64,000 nt of DNA from Mycobacterium sp. (GTDB lineage: Bacteria > Actinomycetota > Actinomycetes > Mycobacteriales > Mycobacteriaceae), in the NCBI GenBank assembly GCA_020438845.1, contig JAGQTV010000106.1, positions 1 to 64,000 of the forward strand, read 5' to 3'. A program made the translations under genes and the position numbers. Below the pieces are notes generated by a model, which was given only the letters and a program-made list of their open reading frames with translations, searched no databases and was not told the origin of the DNA. This document shows, piece after piece, positions 37,176 to 41,883 of this stretch. Numbering within the stretch: the first letter of the stretch is position 1; every line of letters starts with the position of its first letter.

Positions 37176-38276
37176 TCAGCTCGCGCCGGCCGCGATGGCT
37201 TCGTCCACTTCTCTTGCCCGGCTAGCCATTTCCGCGTGGGCGGTGTCCAACTCCTCAGCCTGATCCTCGTCGGCCTTCATCAGGGCCTCGACGTCGAAGC
37301 TAGCCATCCCGTGGACTCCCATGTCCCTGAAGGCCTGCTGGACTTTGTCGCCCCACAGCCCGATGTCCTTGACTATCGGTACGATTCGGCTGAACAGATG
37401 TGAGCGGAACTGGATCATCAACGGAGACGTGTCGACCCACTCGGCACATTCCTTGACGTTGAGGCCGAGGGTCTCGAAGACCTCCTCACCGCGGAAACGA
37501 TCCCGCATCAGGTAGCAGGCCTCGACCACGAAGGCCTCGCGCTCGTCGCGTTCGCGGTCGGTCAGTTCGCTGTAGTAGTCCTTGAGCGAGATACGCCCGA
37601 AGGCGACGTGTCGGGCCTCGTCCTGCATGACGTAGGCCAGCAACTGTTTGGCCAGCGAGTCCGGGGCCGCCAGGTCGCGCAGTGTGCCGAATGCGGCAAG
37701 CGCGAGGCCCTCGATGAGCACCTGCATCCCCAGATAGGGCATGTCCCAGCGCGAGTCGCGCAGGGTGTCGCCGAGCAGGGCGGTGAGGCTTTTGTTGATC
37801 GGATAGACCAGGCCGACCTTGTCCTGCAGGAACCGCGAGAACGCCTCGACATGCCGGGCTTCGTCCATGGTCTGGGTGGCCGCGTAGAACTTGGCGTCCA
37901 TGTCCGGGACCACCTCGACGATCTTGGCCGCGCACACCATCGCGCCCTGCTCGCCGTGCAGGAACTGGGAGAACTGCCACGCCTGGGAGTGCTGTCGAAT
38001 CTCAGCGCGGCGGGCGGCATCCGCCGACTCCCAGGCCGGGCTGCCGAACAGTGGAATGAATGCGTCGGGAAGCCCGACCGGGTTCATCGGGTCGACTTCA
38101 CCGGCCCAGTCGATACGCGAGGCCGCGTCCCACTGTTTGTCCTTGCCCTTCTGGTAGAGGGCGAGAAGCCTGGCACGGCCGTCGTCGTACTCCCAGGTGA
38201 AGCGGGCATCGCCGCCGCTGGGCATGTCGTAGGAGTACGGCTCGGGGATCTCGGTGTACTTGTCCCTCGTGGTCAT
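37176..38276 (-). CDS. ferritin-like diiron protein (R2/AurF-like)
   Basis: 366 residues, mostly helical, with two carboxylate-bridged diiron motifs: TMDEARHVEAFSRFL at about residue 137 and MQDEARHVAFGRISL at about residue 222 (both ExxH), plus Glu candidates in HGEQGAMVCAAK and LIEGLALAAFG. This is the pattern of ribonucleotide-reductase R2-like and AurF N-oxygenase-like proteins, so an O2-activating oxidase or iron-handling role is plausible; substrate unknown. ATG 38276 is preferred over a frame 27 nt longer because GGGGG precedes it. A perfect CRP-type site at 38312-38327 lies 36 bp upstream. It follows the histidine kinase gene by 99 bp on the same strand. Confidence 0.85.
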   Translation of the reverse strand: MTTRDKYTEIPEPYSYDMPSGGDARFTWEYDDGRARLLALYQKGKDKQWDAASRIDWAGEVDPMNPVGLPDAFIPLFGSPAWESADAARRAEIRQHSQAWQFSQFLHGEQGAMVCAAKIVEVVPDMDAKFYAATQTMDEARHVEAFSRFLQDKVGLVYPINKSLTALLGDTLRDSRWDMPYLGMQVLIEGLALAAFGTLRDLAAPDSLAKQLLAYVMQDEARHVAFGRISLKDYYSELTDRERDEREAFVVEACYLMRDRFRGEEVFETLGLNVKECAEWVDTSPLMIQFRSHLFSRIVPIVKDIGLWGDKVQQAFRDMGVHGMASFDVEALMKADEDQAEELDTAHAEMASRAREVDEAIAAGAS

Positions 38277-38311
38277 ACGGAGTCGCCCCCTGTCGCGGAC
38301 CACCTTGTTGA

Positions 38312-38375: not shown

Positions 38376-39830
38376 TCAGACCAGCGACTCGGGCGCGGGC
38401 GCGACGAGTGGGAGGACGACGACGAAGCGGGTGTCGCCGGGCCTCGATTGCACCTGCAGGTTGCCCCGGTGCTTCTCGGCCACGATCCGCCAGGCCAGGT
38501 CGAGGCCCAGGCCGGTGCCCTCGCCGAACGGCTTGGTGGTGAAGAAGGGTGTGAAGATCCGGTCGACGATGTCTTCGGGGATGCCCGGCCCGTCGTCGCA
38601 GATCTCGATCCGGACCATCTCGTCGTTCTCCCGTCGGGTGCGCACCGTCAGCGTGCCCGGACCGTTCATGGCCTGGATCGCGTTATCGAAAAGGTTGGTC
38701 CACACCTGATTCAGATCGCCTGGGTAACAGAGCAATTCCGGCAACGCAGTGTCGAACTCCTTCACCACCCGGATCGGTCCGCCCTTACCGACCTTCTCGC
38801 CGAACATCATCAGCGTGCTCCGCAGCAGGTCGTGGACGTCGGCGGACTGGTAGGGGGCACGGTCCATCTGCGAGTACTGCTTGGTATCGGCCAGCAATGC
38901 CGAGATGCGCTTGCTGGCCTCGGCGATGCGGCTGACCGAAAGCTCGGTGTCGATGGTGTATTTCAGCCAGCCGACAGCAGTCTGCAGTGTGGCCGAGCAG
39001 TCGACCGCCTCGACGCATGCCTCGACGCGTTCCAGCCAATCGGTGCCCAGGCCGGCCTCGACGAACGTCGGCGCGTAGTCCCAGCCGCCGGCGATGCCGT
39101 GGTCGTCGAGCCAGTCGCCGACCTGATCCTCCCGATCCGAGGCCTCCAGCGCCGTGAGCTCCAGCCCCTTCGATTTGGCCACCTCCTCGGCGACCTCGTC
39201 CTGCATTTGCACCAGCACCCGCAACGCTTCCGGAGTGAACTTGCCGTCGCCCAGCATCGCCAGCTTCTGCCGCATCTTTCCGAAGTTCTCCCGCAGGCTG
39301 GCGACGTCCCGCGCGATCGCCGCAGCTGGGTTGTTGAGCTGATGGGTAAGGCCCGCCGTGATCGTGCCCAGCGCCAGCAGCGTCTCGCGCTGACCGATGA
39401 TCTGACGCGACCGCCGGCCGCCGACCATGTGGCCTTCGAGCAGATGCACGGCCATCGGGAACTCCGACTGCATGAAGGCGGCGAAGACCTCGGCGTCGAG
39501 CACGAAGAACCTCGACGGCCTGGTCACCCGCACCGAGGCTTCGTAGCGGTGCTCCTCATCGGGAATGAAGGCCGACCACGCGCCGCAATAGACGCCGCGC
39601 TGTTCGGTGCGGCCAGTCTGAATGTCAACTCCGCCAGAGAGTTTCGACATCACCACCTCGCCGTCGAGGAGGACGTAGAAGCATGTTGCCGGATCACCTT
39701 CCCGGCAGACCGAGCCGGACTCGATGACGGCGATGTGGCCGTTCTCGCACAGCGTCTGCAACTGTGCATCGTTCAGGGCCTCGAAGAGGAACAGCGTCCG
39801 CAGTTCGTCCGGTAGGCATTTCTCGCCCAT
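38376..39830 (-). CDS. sensor histidine kinase with cyclic-nucleotide-binding domain
   Basis: 484 residues, no membrane segment. An N-terminal cNMP-binding-like domain covers about residues 5-125 (FLFEALNDAQLQTLCENGHI, YVLLDGEVVMSKLSGG), without a fully canonical phosphate-binding cassette. An NtrB-like phosphoacceptor region ITAGLTHQLNNPAAAIARDV is near residue 155. The HATPase domain is about residues 340-475 with LNQVWTNLFDNAIQAM, EICDDGPGIP and GEGTGLGLDLAWRIV. It is soluble, so it senses a cytoplasmic signal. The gene starts 16 bp after the receiver-flavoprotein stop with AAGGGA before its ATG, so they are one operon and presumably a phosphotransfer pair. Confidence 0.88.
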   Translation of the reverse strand: MGEKCLPDELRTLFLFEALNDAQLQTLCENGHIAVIESGSVCREGDPATCFYVLLDGEVVMSKLSGGVDIQTGRTEQRGVYCGAWSAFIPDEEHRYEASVRVTRPSRFFVLDAEVFAAFMQSEFPMAVHLLEGHMVGGRRSRQIIGQRETLLALGTITAGLTHQLNNPAAAIARDVASLRENFGKMRQKLAMLGDGKFTPEALRVLVQMQDEVAEEVAKSKGLELTALEASDREDQVGDWLDDHGIAGGWDYAPTFVEAGLGTDWLERVEACVEAVDCSATLQTAVGWLKYTIDTELSVSRIAEASKRISALLADTKQYSQMDRAPYQSADVHDLLRSTLMMFGEKVGKGGPIRVVKEFDTALPELLCYPGDLNQVWTNLFDNAIQAMNGPGTLTVRTRRENDEMVRIEICDDGPGIPEDIVDRIFTPFFTTKPFGEGTGLGLDLAWRIVAEKHRGNLQVQSRPGDTRFVVVLPLVAPAPESLV

Positions 39831-39846
39831 GGTCGTCCCTTTCGGC

Positions 39847-41547
39847 TCAGACTTCGGCCAGATAGCGATGCACCAGCATCACCGCCATCGAACCCTCGCC
39901 GACGGCGGCGGCCACCCGCTTGGCTGACTCGGCGCGCACGTCGCCGGCAACGAACACACCCGGCACGCTGGTCTCCAAGTGGTGCGGCGGGCGGTCGAGC
40001 ATCCAACCGCAGACGTTGCGCAGGTCCGGTCCGGACAGGATGAACCCGTGGTTGTCACGGGCGAGAACACCGTCCAGCCAGCTTGTGCGCGGTTCGGCGC
40101 CGATGAAGCAGCACATCCGGGTGCAGTGCACCGTCGTCCGCTCGCCGCTCTGGGTGTCCTGCAGCACCAGGCCGGTGAGGTGGTCGTCCGCACCGAGGGT
40201 ATCCACGACTTCGGTGCAGGTGCGGACGGAGATCTTGTCGTTCGCAGCGATCTGCTGGATGAGGTAGTGCGACATCGAGGCCTCCAACGACGGCCCGCGC
40301 ACCAGCATGGTCACCGACTTCGCTTCCCGCGCCATGAACATCGCGGCCTGTCCGGCCGAGTTGGCCCCGCCCACGATGTAGACGTCCTCGCCGGCACACT
40401 CGGATGCGTCCGACACCGACGCTCCGTAGTAGACGCCGCGCCCGACGTAGTTGCCGCCGGGATCCTCCGGGTTGTTCCAGCAGCCGGTGACCTTCAACTG
40501 CCGGTAATCGACACCGGTGGCCAAAATGACCGCCTGAGCCCCGATGGTACTGCCGTCCTCGAATCCGATCGTGCGCGCGGAACCGGGATCGCCCGCGTCC
40601 AACCGCACCGCTTTGCGCGTGGTGATGACCTCCGCCCCGAACCGCTCGGCCTGGCGGCGGGCCGACGTCGTCAGTTCGGCGCCCGAGACGCCGGTGGGAA
40701 AGCCGAGGTAGTTCTCGATCCGGGAACTGCGACCGGCCTGACCGCCGGTTGCGGTCTCCTCGATCAGCACCGTCTTGAGACCCTCCGACGCGCCGTAGAC
40801 CGCCGCGGCCAGCCCGGCCGGGCCACCGCCGATGACGGCCAGGTCGTACATCGGGAACCGGGGCTCCGTCGAGAGCCCGAGCATCGCGGCGAGTTCGGCG
40901 TCGCTCGGTTGCACGAGGACCCGACCCTGCTCGGTGATGACCACCGGCAGTTCGAGCCCATCCAGGCCCGCAACCTCGAGGAGTTGCAGGCCCTTGGGGT
41001 CGTCGGCCATGAAGGAGCGGAACGAATGCTGGTTTCGAGCCAGGAACTGGCGGACCGCCCACGAGCGCTCGTTCCAGCGGTGGCCGATCACTTTGGTGTG
41101 CGGCACGGCCCGGTCCCCGGCGGCCCGCCACCCTTCCAGCAGCGTGTCGATCACCGGGTAGAGCTTCTCCTCCGGCGGGTCCCAGGGTTTCAGCAGGTAA
41201 TGGTCCAGATCGACGACGTTGATGGCGTCGATCGCGGCGTGGGTGTCGGCGTAGGCGGTCAGCAGTACCCGCCGGGCAAGCGGGTACAGATCCATGGCCG
41301 CCTCGAGGAATTCGATGCCGCTCATCTTCGGCATCCGATAGTCGGCGACGAAGAGGGCCACCACGTCGCCCCGCAACTTCAGTTCGGCGAGGGTTTCCAG
41401 CGCGTCGGGACCCGATTCCGCCCGCACGATCCGGTAGCGCTCGCCGTAATGCCGACGCAGGTCACGGGCCACCGCCCGCGAGACGGCCGGGTCGTCATCG
41501 ACGGTGAGAATGACGGGCTTGTGGGTTTGGGGTGCAGTTCCAGTCAT
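39847..41547 (-). CDS. response-regulator receiver domain fused to thioredoxin-reductase-like flavoprotein
   Basis: 566 residues. Residues about 10-135 are a receiver domain: acidic pair in LTVDDDPAVSR, phosphoacceptor Asp in VALFVADYRMPKMSG, Thr in RRVLLTAYAD and Lys in HYLLKPWDPP. A glutaredoxin/thioredoxin-like linker part (about 150-240) is followed by a pyridine-nucleotide-disulfide oxidoreductase (about 250-560) with FAD motif DLAVIGGGPAGLAAAVYGAS and NADPH motif VYIVGGANSAGQAAMFMA. Where thioredoxin reductase has CATCDG before the NADPH motif, this protein reads GASVSD, so the redox disulfide is absent. No DNA-binding domain: the output is enzymatic. CATACT 8 nt before the ATG may be its -10. 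Confidence 0.88.
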   Translation of the reverse strand: MTGTAPQTHKPVILTVDDDPAVSRAVARDLRRHYGERYRIVRAESGPDALETLAELKLRGDVVALFVADYRMPKMSGIEFLEAAMDLYPLARRVLLTAYADTHAAIDAINVVDLDHYLLKPWDPPEEKLYPVIDTLLEGWRAAGDRAVPHTKVIGHRWNERSWAVRQFLARNQHSFRSFMADDPKGLQLLEVAGLDGLELPVVITEQGRVLVQPSDAELAAMLGLSTEPRFPMYDLAVIGGGPAGLAAAVYGASEGLKTVLIEETATGGQAGRSSRIENYLGFPTGVSGAELTTSARRQAERFGAEVITTRKAVRLDAGDPGSARTIGFEDGSTIGAQAVILATGVDYRQLKVTGCWNNPEDPGGNYVGRGVYYGASVSDASECAGEDVYIVGGANSAGQAAMFMAREAKSVTMLVRGPSLEASMSHYLIQQIAANDKISVRTCTEVVDTLGADDHLTGLVLQDTQSGERTTVHCTRMCCFIGAEPRTSWLDGVLARDNHGFILSGPDLRNVCGWMLDRPPHHLETSVPGVFVAGDVRAESAKRVAAAVGEGSMAVMLVHRYLAEV

Positions 41548-41883
41548 CGTCTTGAAGTATGCGCCCGTTTCCGGCCCTTGGAACTGAGGGCGCCGGAACT
41601 GGGGGCGCCGGAACTGGGGCGCCGGAATTGGGGCCGCCGGAACCGATGCTCGTGAACCTTCTGATGGCCCGGTTCGCGAACCATGTTGACGGACGCCTAC
41701 GGGGTAGGGTCATCACAACCGGCGCATGGGCGGGCAGTTCCGCCAAACCCGCGCGATCCCCCACCTTCGAGGTGCCTCTCACGCATGTACCGATGTTCCC
41801 AAGAAAAGTCGATTTATACTGCGGGACAGGCTCTTTCGCGTACAAAAAGGCGGCTAAGCCAGCATTCCGCGAAAAAATCCGAG
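41548..41883. other. 336-bp intergenic region without a recognised gene
   Basis: It contains the 15-bp tandem repeats at 41580-41645. Frames on both strands cross it but show no recognisable protein. On the minus strand the lipZ-like stop is followed by a short CCGA/TCGG stem and a run of six T (41873-41888), a weak candidate terminator. The remainder is unassigned and slightly AT-richer than its neighbours. Confidence 0.6.
41580..41645. repeat. 15-bp tandem repeat upstream of the receiver-flavoprotein gene
   Basis: GGAACTGAGGGCGCC at 41580-41594, GGAACTGGGGGCGCC at 41595-41609, a 14-bp copy at 41610-41623, GGAATTGGGGCCGCC at 41624-41638 and a partial copy after it. The array begins about 30 bp upstream of the flavoprotein ATG. 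Confidence 0.8.

Follow-up and report, generated by a model that had tools for sequence, protein, structure and literature searches.

Most response regulators known so far have DNA, RNA, second messengers or protein partners as their targets. The fusion of a receiver to a thioredoxin reductase (TrxR) domain is already named in print among the enzymatic output domains (PMC5847659), in an entry with the same domain pair as the protein studied here and the same genus as type; the accessible passages of that paper call the domain a thioredoxin reductase and mention no kinase partner, no thioredoxin-like linker and no missing CxxC. Here we analyze such a receiver-flavoprotein and the histidine kinase encoded beside it in a 64,000-nucleotide stretch of a Mycobacterium sp. 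contig (JAGQTV010000106.1), referred to in full as the window. A sequence-only reading of the window had taken receiver-TrxR fusions to be an annotated family, as the published entry bears out, and had considered the system not described in detail. The latter stands insofar as we found no experiments on a receiver-flavoprotein/kinase pair in the open-license literature (titles and abstract openings), but not for the architecture, which was already in print. We rate the pair as a member of a widespread, apparently unexplored class (REC-TrxR, for receiver-TrxR) of known architecture. The reading that we favor, with moderate confidence, is that kinase and flavoprotein are a cognate two-component pair in which phosphorylation of the receiver controls an NAD(P)H/FAD module with an acceptor other than thioredoxin. 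If so, a response regulator that sets NAD(P)H electron flow would tie two-component signaling to redox metabolism without transcription, in a protein found in 98 of 148 genus genomes and, outside the phylum, on plasmids of Nostoc and Paraburkholderia.

Compared with thioredoxin-disulfide reductase (TIGR01292; structures 2a87 and 5uth), the window flavoprotein lacks the CxxC, scores below the family cut-off, has lost two of the three arginines of the NADPH motif and carries added receiver and thioredoxin-like domains; because the cysteines that define thioredoxin reductase were tested for and are absent, we file it with the REC-TrxR kind. AhpF, the NADH-dependent peroxiredoxin reductase (4xvg, 1hyu), uses a CxxC in both of its parts, whereas the window flavoprotein has none in either and an added receiver. 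The TrxR-like ferredoxin/flavodoxin-NAD(P)+ reductases (FNRs) are likewise without CxxC. PMC10294844 describes flavoenzymes of this family, built on the TrxR scaffold, whose acceptors are not thioredoxin, and they offer a precedent for what the window module could do, although its match to FNR is weaker (3ab1, E = 4.7e-18) than its match to TrxR (E = 2.2e-37). A stress-regulated thioredoxin reductase has also been reported (PMC6599016), which the accessible text does not show to belong to the family of the window flavoprotein. Plasmid records annotate members of this family as "FAD-dependent oxidoreductase" and the kinase as "ATP-binding protein."

Conserved pairing of kinase and receiver-flavoprotein

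In the window the flavoprotein gene is followed, after 16 bases (39831-39846), by the kinase gene, both on the minus strand; the spacing and both sets of coordinates in the sequence-only reading were confirmed by our check of the open reading frames (ORFs). The nearest named relatives of the flavoprotein come from Mycobacterium and Mycolicibacterium (84-85% identity), so the genus is probably Mycobacterium in the wide sense. Across 148 genomes of the genus, searched for each protein at a threshold of E 1e-60, the flavoprotein was matched in 99, one of them (G120) only through a receiver-less relative, leaving 98 with a receiver-flavoprotein. A kinase of the same family is the next gene downstream, in the same orientation and no more than 423 bases off, in 97 of the 98, and the remaining flavoprotein gene ends 125 bases from the end of its contig; no genus genome had the kinase without the flavoprotein at this threshold. 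In the phylum (346 genomes, match threshold E 1e-70), 76 genomes have a flavoprotein match, a count that takes in members of B and C, the related groups treated below. All 34 clade A loci read out (clades A and B being defined by receiver score against the window's receiver), among them loci from Streptomyces, Nocardia, Paraburkholderia and a Nostoc plasmid, have an adjacent kinase, which stands upstream in L077 and is truncated in L082, where the contig ends. Among the named loci, the best 80 of 591 confirmed stretches and all actinobacterial, the kinase lies close downstream in 79. In L193 (Amycolatopsis eburnea) the downstream kinase, again of the same type, is separated from the flavoprotein by an insertion, an oppositely oriented ORF that, judged by its sequence, resembles a TnpB-type transposase.

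Because the arrangement is conserved across the genus and beyond, a chance origin of the gene pair is excluded. The gene neighborhoods support the kinase and the receiver-flavoprotein as a predicted cognate pair, the partnership that the sequence-only reading had proposed and for which it had suggested the comparison across mycobacteria; no rival response regulator was found as a candidate partner of the kinase.

Some loci vary the arrangement. A second, diverged kinase (50-54% identical to that of the window) separates flavoprotein and main kinase in L113, L114 and L115, seven genomes have such an intervening second kinase (G014, G019, G027, G037, G042, G052 and G099), and in L116 a 133-residue kinase remnant occupies the same place. 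Extra kinases unlinked to the pair occur in G011, G014, G027, G041, G052, G056, G077, G082, G084, G099 and G142. At G030:C4:109747-112266, flavoprotein (residues 8-505) and kinase (residues 122-479) share one 891-residue frame, as if a deletion had fused the two genes and removed the sensor domain of the kinase. Internal stop codons interrupt the flavoprotein copies of G076 and G125 and the kinase copies of G013 and G031, which may mean decay of the pair in some species or errors in the assemblies.

A TrxR-like module without its disulfide

The C-terminal part of the flavoprotein matches Pyr_redox_2 in Pfam (residues 234-552, 2.1e-29) and, as noted above, TrxR sequences of solved structures. 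It scores 201.6 bits against TIGR01292 (NCBIfam thioredoxin-disulfide reductase; cut-off, 343.45) and 147 bits against TIGR03140 (AhpF; cut-off, 502.9). We aligned 65 family rows (64 relatives plus the window protein) to L002, the genome's own TrxR, whose CATCDG falls onto ASVSDA (residues 376-381) of the window flavoprotein, so that Ala376 and Ser379 occupy the catalytic cysteine positions, with Asp380 as the acid that follows the second. The sequence-only reading had seen the loss of the disulfide correctly and had placed GASVSD opposite CATCDG, a register shifted by one without consequence. Over the 65 rows the first catalytic-cysteine column holds Ala, Ser or Gly and the second is variable but never cysteine; the acid that follows it is Glu or Asp in 53, and Tyr374, just ahead of the site, is invariant.

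A wider survey covered 144 relatives, 114 of them with an intact-type receiver and 30 others. None has a CxxC at the active site, and the single CxxC found elsewhere inside a TrxR module (residue 429 of the L149 ORF) is off-site. The loss of the disulfide thus extends beyond the window gene to the whole branch as sampled. A competent CxxC elsewhere in the flavoprotein, which the sequence-only reading had named as grounds for abandoning its view, was looked for and is ruled out as a conserved feature: none is kept in the window protein or the 144 relatives. These absences support the earlier claim that the window flavoprotein does not act as a thioredoxin reductase, at least a classical one, as far as its residues can tell, and the annotation "thioredoxin reductase" is probably misleading for this branch.

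The cofactor sites are better preserved. All of 25 diverse rows share the main cofactor glycines, in agreement with the earlier note of FAD and NADPH motifs, but the NADPH motif is only partly there. HRRxxxR is the NADPH motif of thioredoxin reductases; of its three arginines the window protein keeps one, Arg417 (present in all 65 rows), the other positions being Gly418 and Glu422. Because two of the three are lost, NADPH is unsure as the donor, and NADH and NADPH are both possible.

Receiver and linker domains

The N-terminal domain matches Response_reg in Pfam (residues 13-125, 4e-13). Its residues Asp17, Asp18, Asp69 (by position the phospho-acceptor), Thr97 and Lys120 are all kept, so the receiver is intact, as had been read from the window, and all five are invariant in the 35 clade A rows. 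Between receiver and TrxR-like module lies a linker domain of about 80 residues with the predicted order strand-helix-strand-helix-strand-strand-helix, typical of thioredoxin/glutaredoxin folds. It probably has a thioredoxin-like fold; since the structural re-alignment covered flavoprotein residues 229-566 only, this assignment rests on secondary structure. No CxxC occurs in the domain in any of the 144 relatives, and the window protein has no cysteine at residues 149-228. With the CxxC missing from both the TrxR module and the linker domain, the acceptor is most likely something other than thioredoxin.

The histidine kinase

The kinase combines a cNMP_binding domain (Pfam; residues 41-122, 7.5e-10) with HATPase_c (residues 372-475, 1.2e-24). 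No membrane helix is likely in it (highest 19-residue Kyte-Doolittle mean, 1.1), in keeping with the earlier description of a soluble kinase with a cNMP-binding-like domain. In an alignment of 122 kinases, the N and G boxes are kept at 90% or more (Asn374 to Asn379, Asn383, Asp412, Gly414, Gly416, Gly436, Gly438, Gly440 and Gly442), and the histidine that by position is the phospho-acceptor is universal (Table 1). HisKA (PF00512) matches only residues 293-323, with 16.3 bits against a cut-off of 26.9, starting 130 residues beyond His163. The model of the kinase sets apart helices 125-193 and 282-322, with low confidence in places, and the mostly helical insert between these two DHp helices, which has conserved Asp232, Glu234, Trp240 and Trp250 and no Pfam match, would explain the partial, sub-threshold match.

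The phosphate-binding cassette of cyclic-nucleotide sensors has a canonical Glu and Arg. Alignment shows both replaced in the window kinase, whose branch is without the canonical cyclic-nucleotide pocket; the more distant kinases L075, L078, L079 and L081 keep the canonical Gly-Glu and Arg, as judged by eye. The sensor region has instead a cysteine pair, Cys5 and Cys28, with which it might read a thiol state or a metal. Both cysteines are present in 76 of the 122 kinases, Cys28 alone in 2 distant rows, Cys5 alone in none and neither in 44. Coevolution of the two was considered and dropped, as the kinase tree requires a single change of Cys5 and hence offers no repetition on which to test it. 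The main kinases of the 15 named mycobacterial loci have Cys50 in 15 and Cys82 in 12.

Sister groups with other N termini

Two groups of relatives carry the module under a different N terminus. In group B, none of 17 receiver-like domains has all four tested phosphorylation positions right, compared with 35 of 35 in clade A, a contrast that is partly built in and not independent because the groups were set by receiver score. The stretches read at the 17 group B loci, 7.4 to 12 kb long, contain no kinase, and this contrast in kinase adjacency with clade A is not built into the grouping. With degenerate receivers and no adjacent kinase, group B is a natural control for the role of the receiver. 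Group C has the same TrxR-like module with cNMP-type or other N termini in place of the receiver, and none of 13 loci has a kinase beside it in the stretch read; two plasmid records of this type, annotated "cyclic nucleotide-binding domain-containing thioredoxin-disulfide reductase," share both the CxxC-less module and the type of linker. On the tree of TrxR modules the clade A label needs one change, at a weak support of 37 and with one very long outgroup row.

Proposed mechanism and alternatives

Under the favored reading, the soluble kinase would sense a cytoplasmic signal through its CRP-like domain and autophosphorylate on His163, and the phosphate would pass to Asp69 of the receiver. The receiver, which is without a DNA-binding output, would then switch the FAD- and NAD(P)H-binding module on its TrxR scaffold, and NAD(P)H electrons would run via FAD to a non-thioredoxin acceptor, such as an electron carrier, a quinone or oxygen. 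Phosphorylation would set the rate of electron transfer or the choice of partner, and the output might be that of an oxidase or diaphorase, as the sequence-only reading had suggested.

Several points weigh against this reading. Our literature searches turned up no activity of any family member, and catalysis is inferred from conserved motifs; the score below the TIGR01292 cut-off leaves the reaction of the module undecided. The confidence of the flavoprotein structure model is middling (mean predicted local distance difference test [pLDDT], 76.6; predicted template modeling score, 0.55), and its pLDDT falls below 50 at residues 267-288 and 537-546, part of the FAD site. Cys384 is present in all 39 actinobacterial rows and could serve as a different kind of redox cysteine, an idea tempered by its absence from 8 of 25 wider rows. 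Finally, the extra unlinked family kinases (48-61% identical) in 11 genomes mean that kinase and receiver need not be matched one to one.

The best-surviving alternative, though in our view an unlikely one, makes the flavoprotein a sensor or scaffold without turnover, with an FAD/NAD(P)H state that would signal the cell's redox charge and act back, via the receiver, on the kinase or partner proteins. The CxxC is gone from both possible sites and the cofactor motifs are kept, the module is joined to an intact receiver in clade A, a degenerate one in group B and cNMP-type or other domains in group C, as expected for a signaling module, and the missing canonical pocket leaves the kinase's own input unclear. 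The conserved acid after the second lost cysteine, together with the invariant Tyr374 and Arg417, nevertheless resembles a retained reaction site. We give slightly more credence, still tentatively, to an extension of the phosphorylation-controlled reading to the whole family: a signaling flavoprotein family derived from thioredoxin reductase without both disulfides and placed under interchangeable regulators, in which, here, a kinase whose CRP-like sensor domain carries a thiol- or metal-ligating cysteine pair would gate the electron path by phosphorylation with no change in transcription.

It is improbable that the flavoprotein is still a disulfide or peroxide reductase that uses the single Cys384, or cysteines supplied by a partner, instead of the CxxC. 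Cys384 is found five residues past the position of the second lost cysteine (Ser379) and is the only well-kept one of the seven flavoprotein cysteines (17 of 25 wider rows, besides all the actinobacterial ones), but it aligns with neither active-site cysteine and only 33 of the 65 family rows have a cysteine there; the best kept of the other six, Cys444, occurs in 20 of the 39 actinobacterial rows and 4 of the 25 wider ones. Least probable is the earlier proposal of a single oxygen- or redox-responsive system that joins kinase and flavoprotein to the AurF-like diiron protein encoded downstream, a link we reject on gene neighborhood: in the window's genome the diiron ORF does start 72 bases past the kinase, on the same strand, but of the 53 genus genomes (out of 148) with the diiron gene (at least 82% identity) 20 lack the pair, and of the 33 that also have REC-TrxR, 16 carry the two on different contigs and 17 on one, where they are neighbors only in the window's genome and the next smallest distance is 34 kb.

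Locus features and neighboring genes

The features of the locus are collected in Table 1.

TABLE 1 Features of the kinase/receiver-flavoprotein locus (window coordinates)
Feature	Residues	Position	Strand	Basis
AurF-like diiron protein		37176-38303	-	
Soluble histidine kinase	484 amino acids	38376..39830	-	ORF list, Pfam, homologue searches
HATPase domain	372-475	38406..38717	-	Pfam
Mostly helical insert between two DHp helices	~200-275	39006..39233	-	Alignment, structure model
Phospho-acceptor by position	His163	39342..39344	-	Present in 122/122 kinases
CRP-like (cNMP_binding) sensor domain	41-122	39465..39710	-	Pfam, alignment
Partner of Cys5	Cys28	39747..39749	-	Alignment
One of the cysteine pair	Cys5	39816..39818	-	Alignment
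Receiver/thioredoxin-like/TrxR-like flavoprotein response regulator	566 amino acids	39847..41547	-	ORF list, Pfam, homologue searches
TrxR-like FAD/NAD(P) module	233-565	39853..40851	-	Pfam, structure-sequence matches, re-alignment
Site of lost disulfide	374-380 (Tyr374 to Asp380)	40408..40428	-	Alignment with L002
Predicted thioredoxin/glutaredoxin-like domain, without cysteine	~149-228	40864..41103	-	Predicted secondary structure
Receiver domain	13-125	41173..41511	-	Pfam

A gene for a UBP-type zinc finger recurs near these loci, both receiver-type (L059, L060, L063, L064, L065, L069, L076, L078, L080) and cNMP-type (L104, L106, L107, L112), and in L078 the kinase ORF itself carries such a finger. 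It lies within 5 kb downstream in 36 of the best 80 named loci and in none of the 15 mycobacterial ones. Anywhere in the genome, it is present in 77 of the 98 genus genomes with REC-TrxR and in 6 of the 50 without, odds that are no test of association because the genomes are kin; the zinc finger is a possible third partner. Immediately upstream of the flavoprotein start codon, at window positions 41580-41643, a 15-base unit is repeated in about 4.3 copies.

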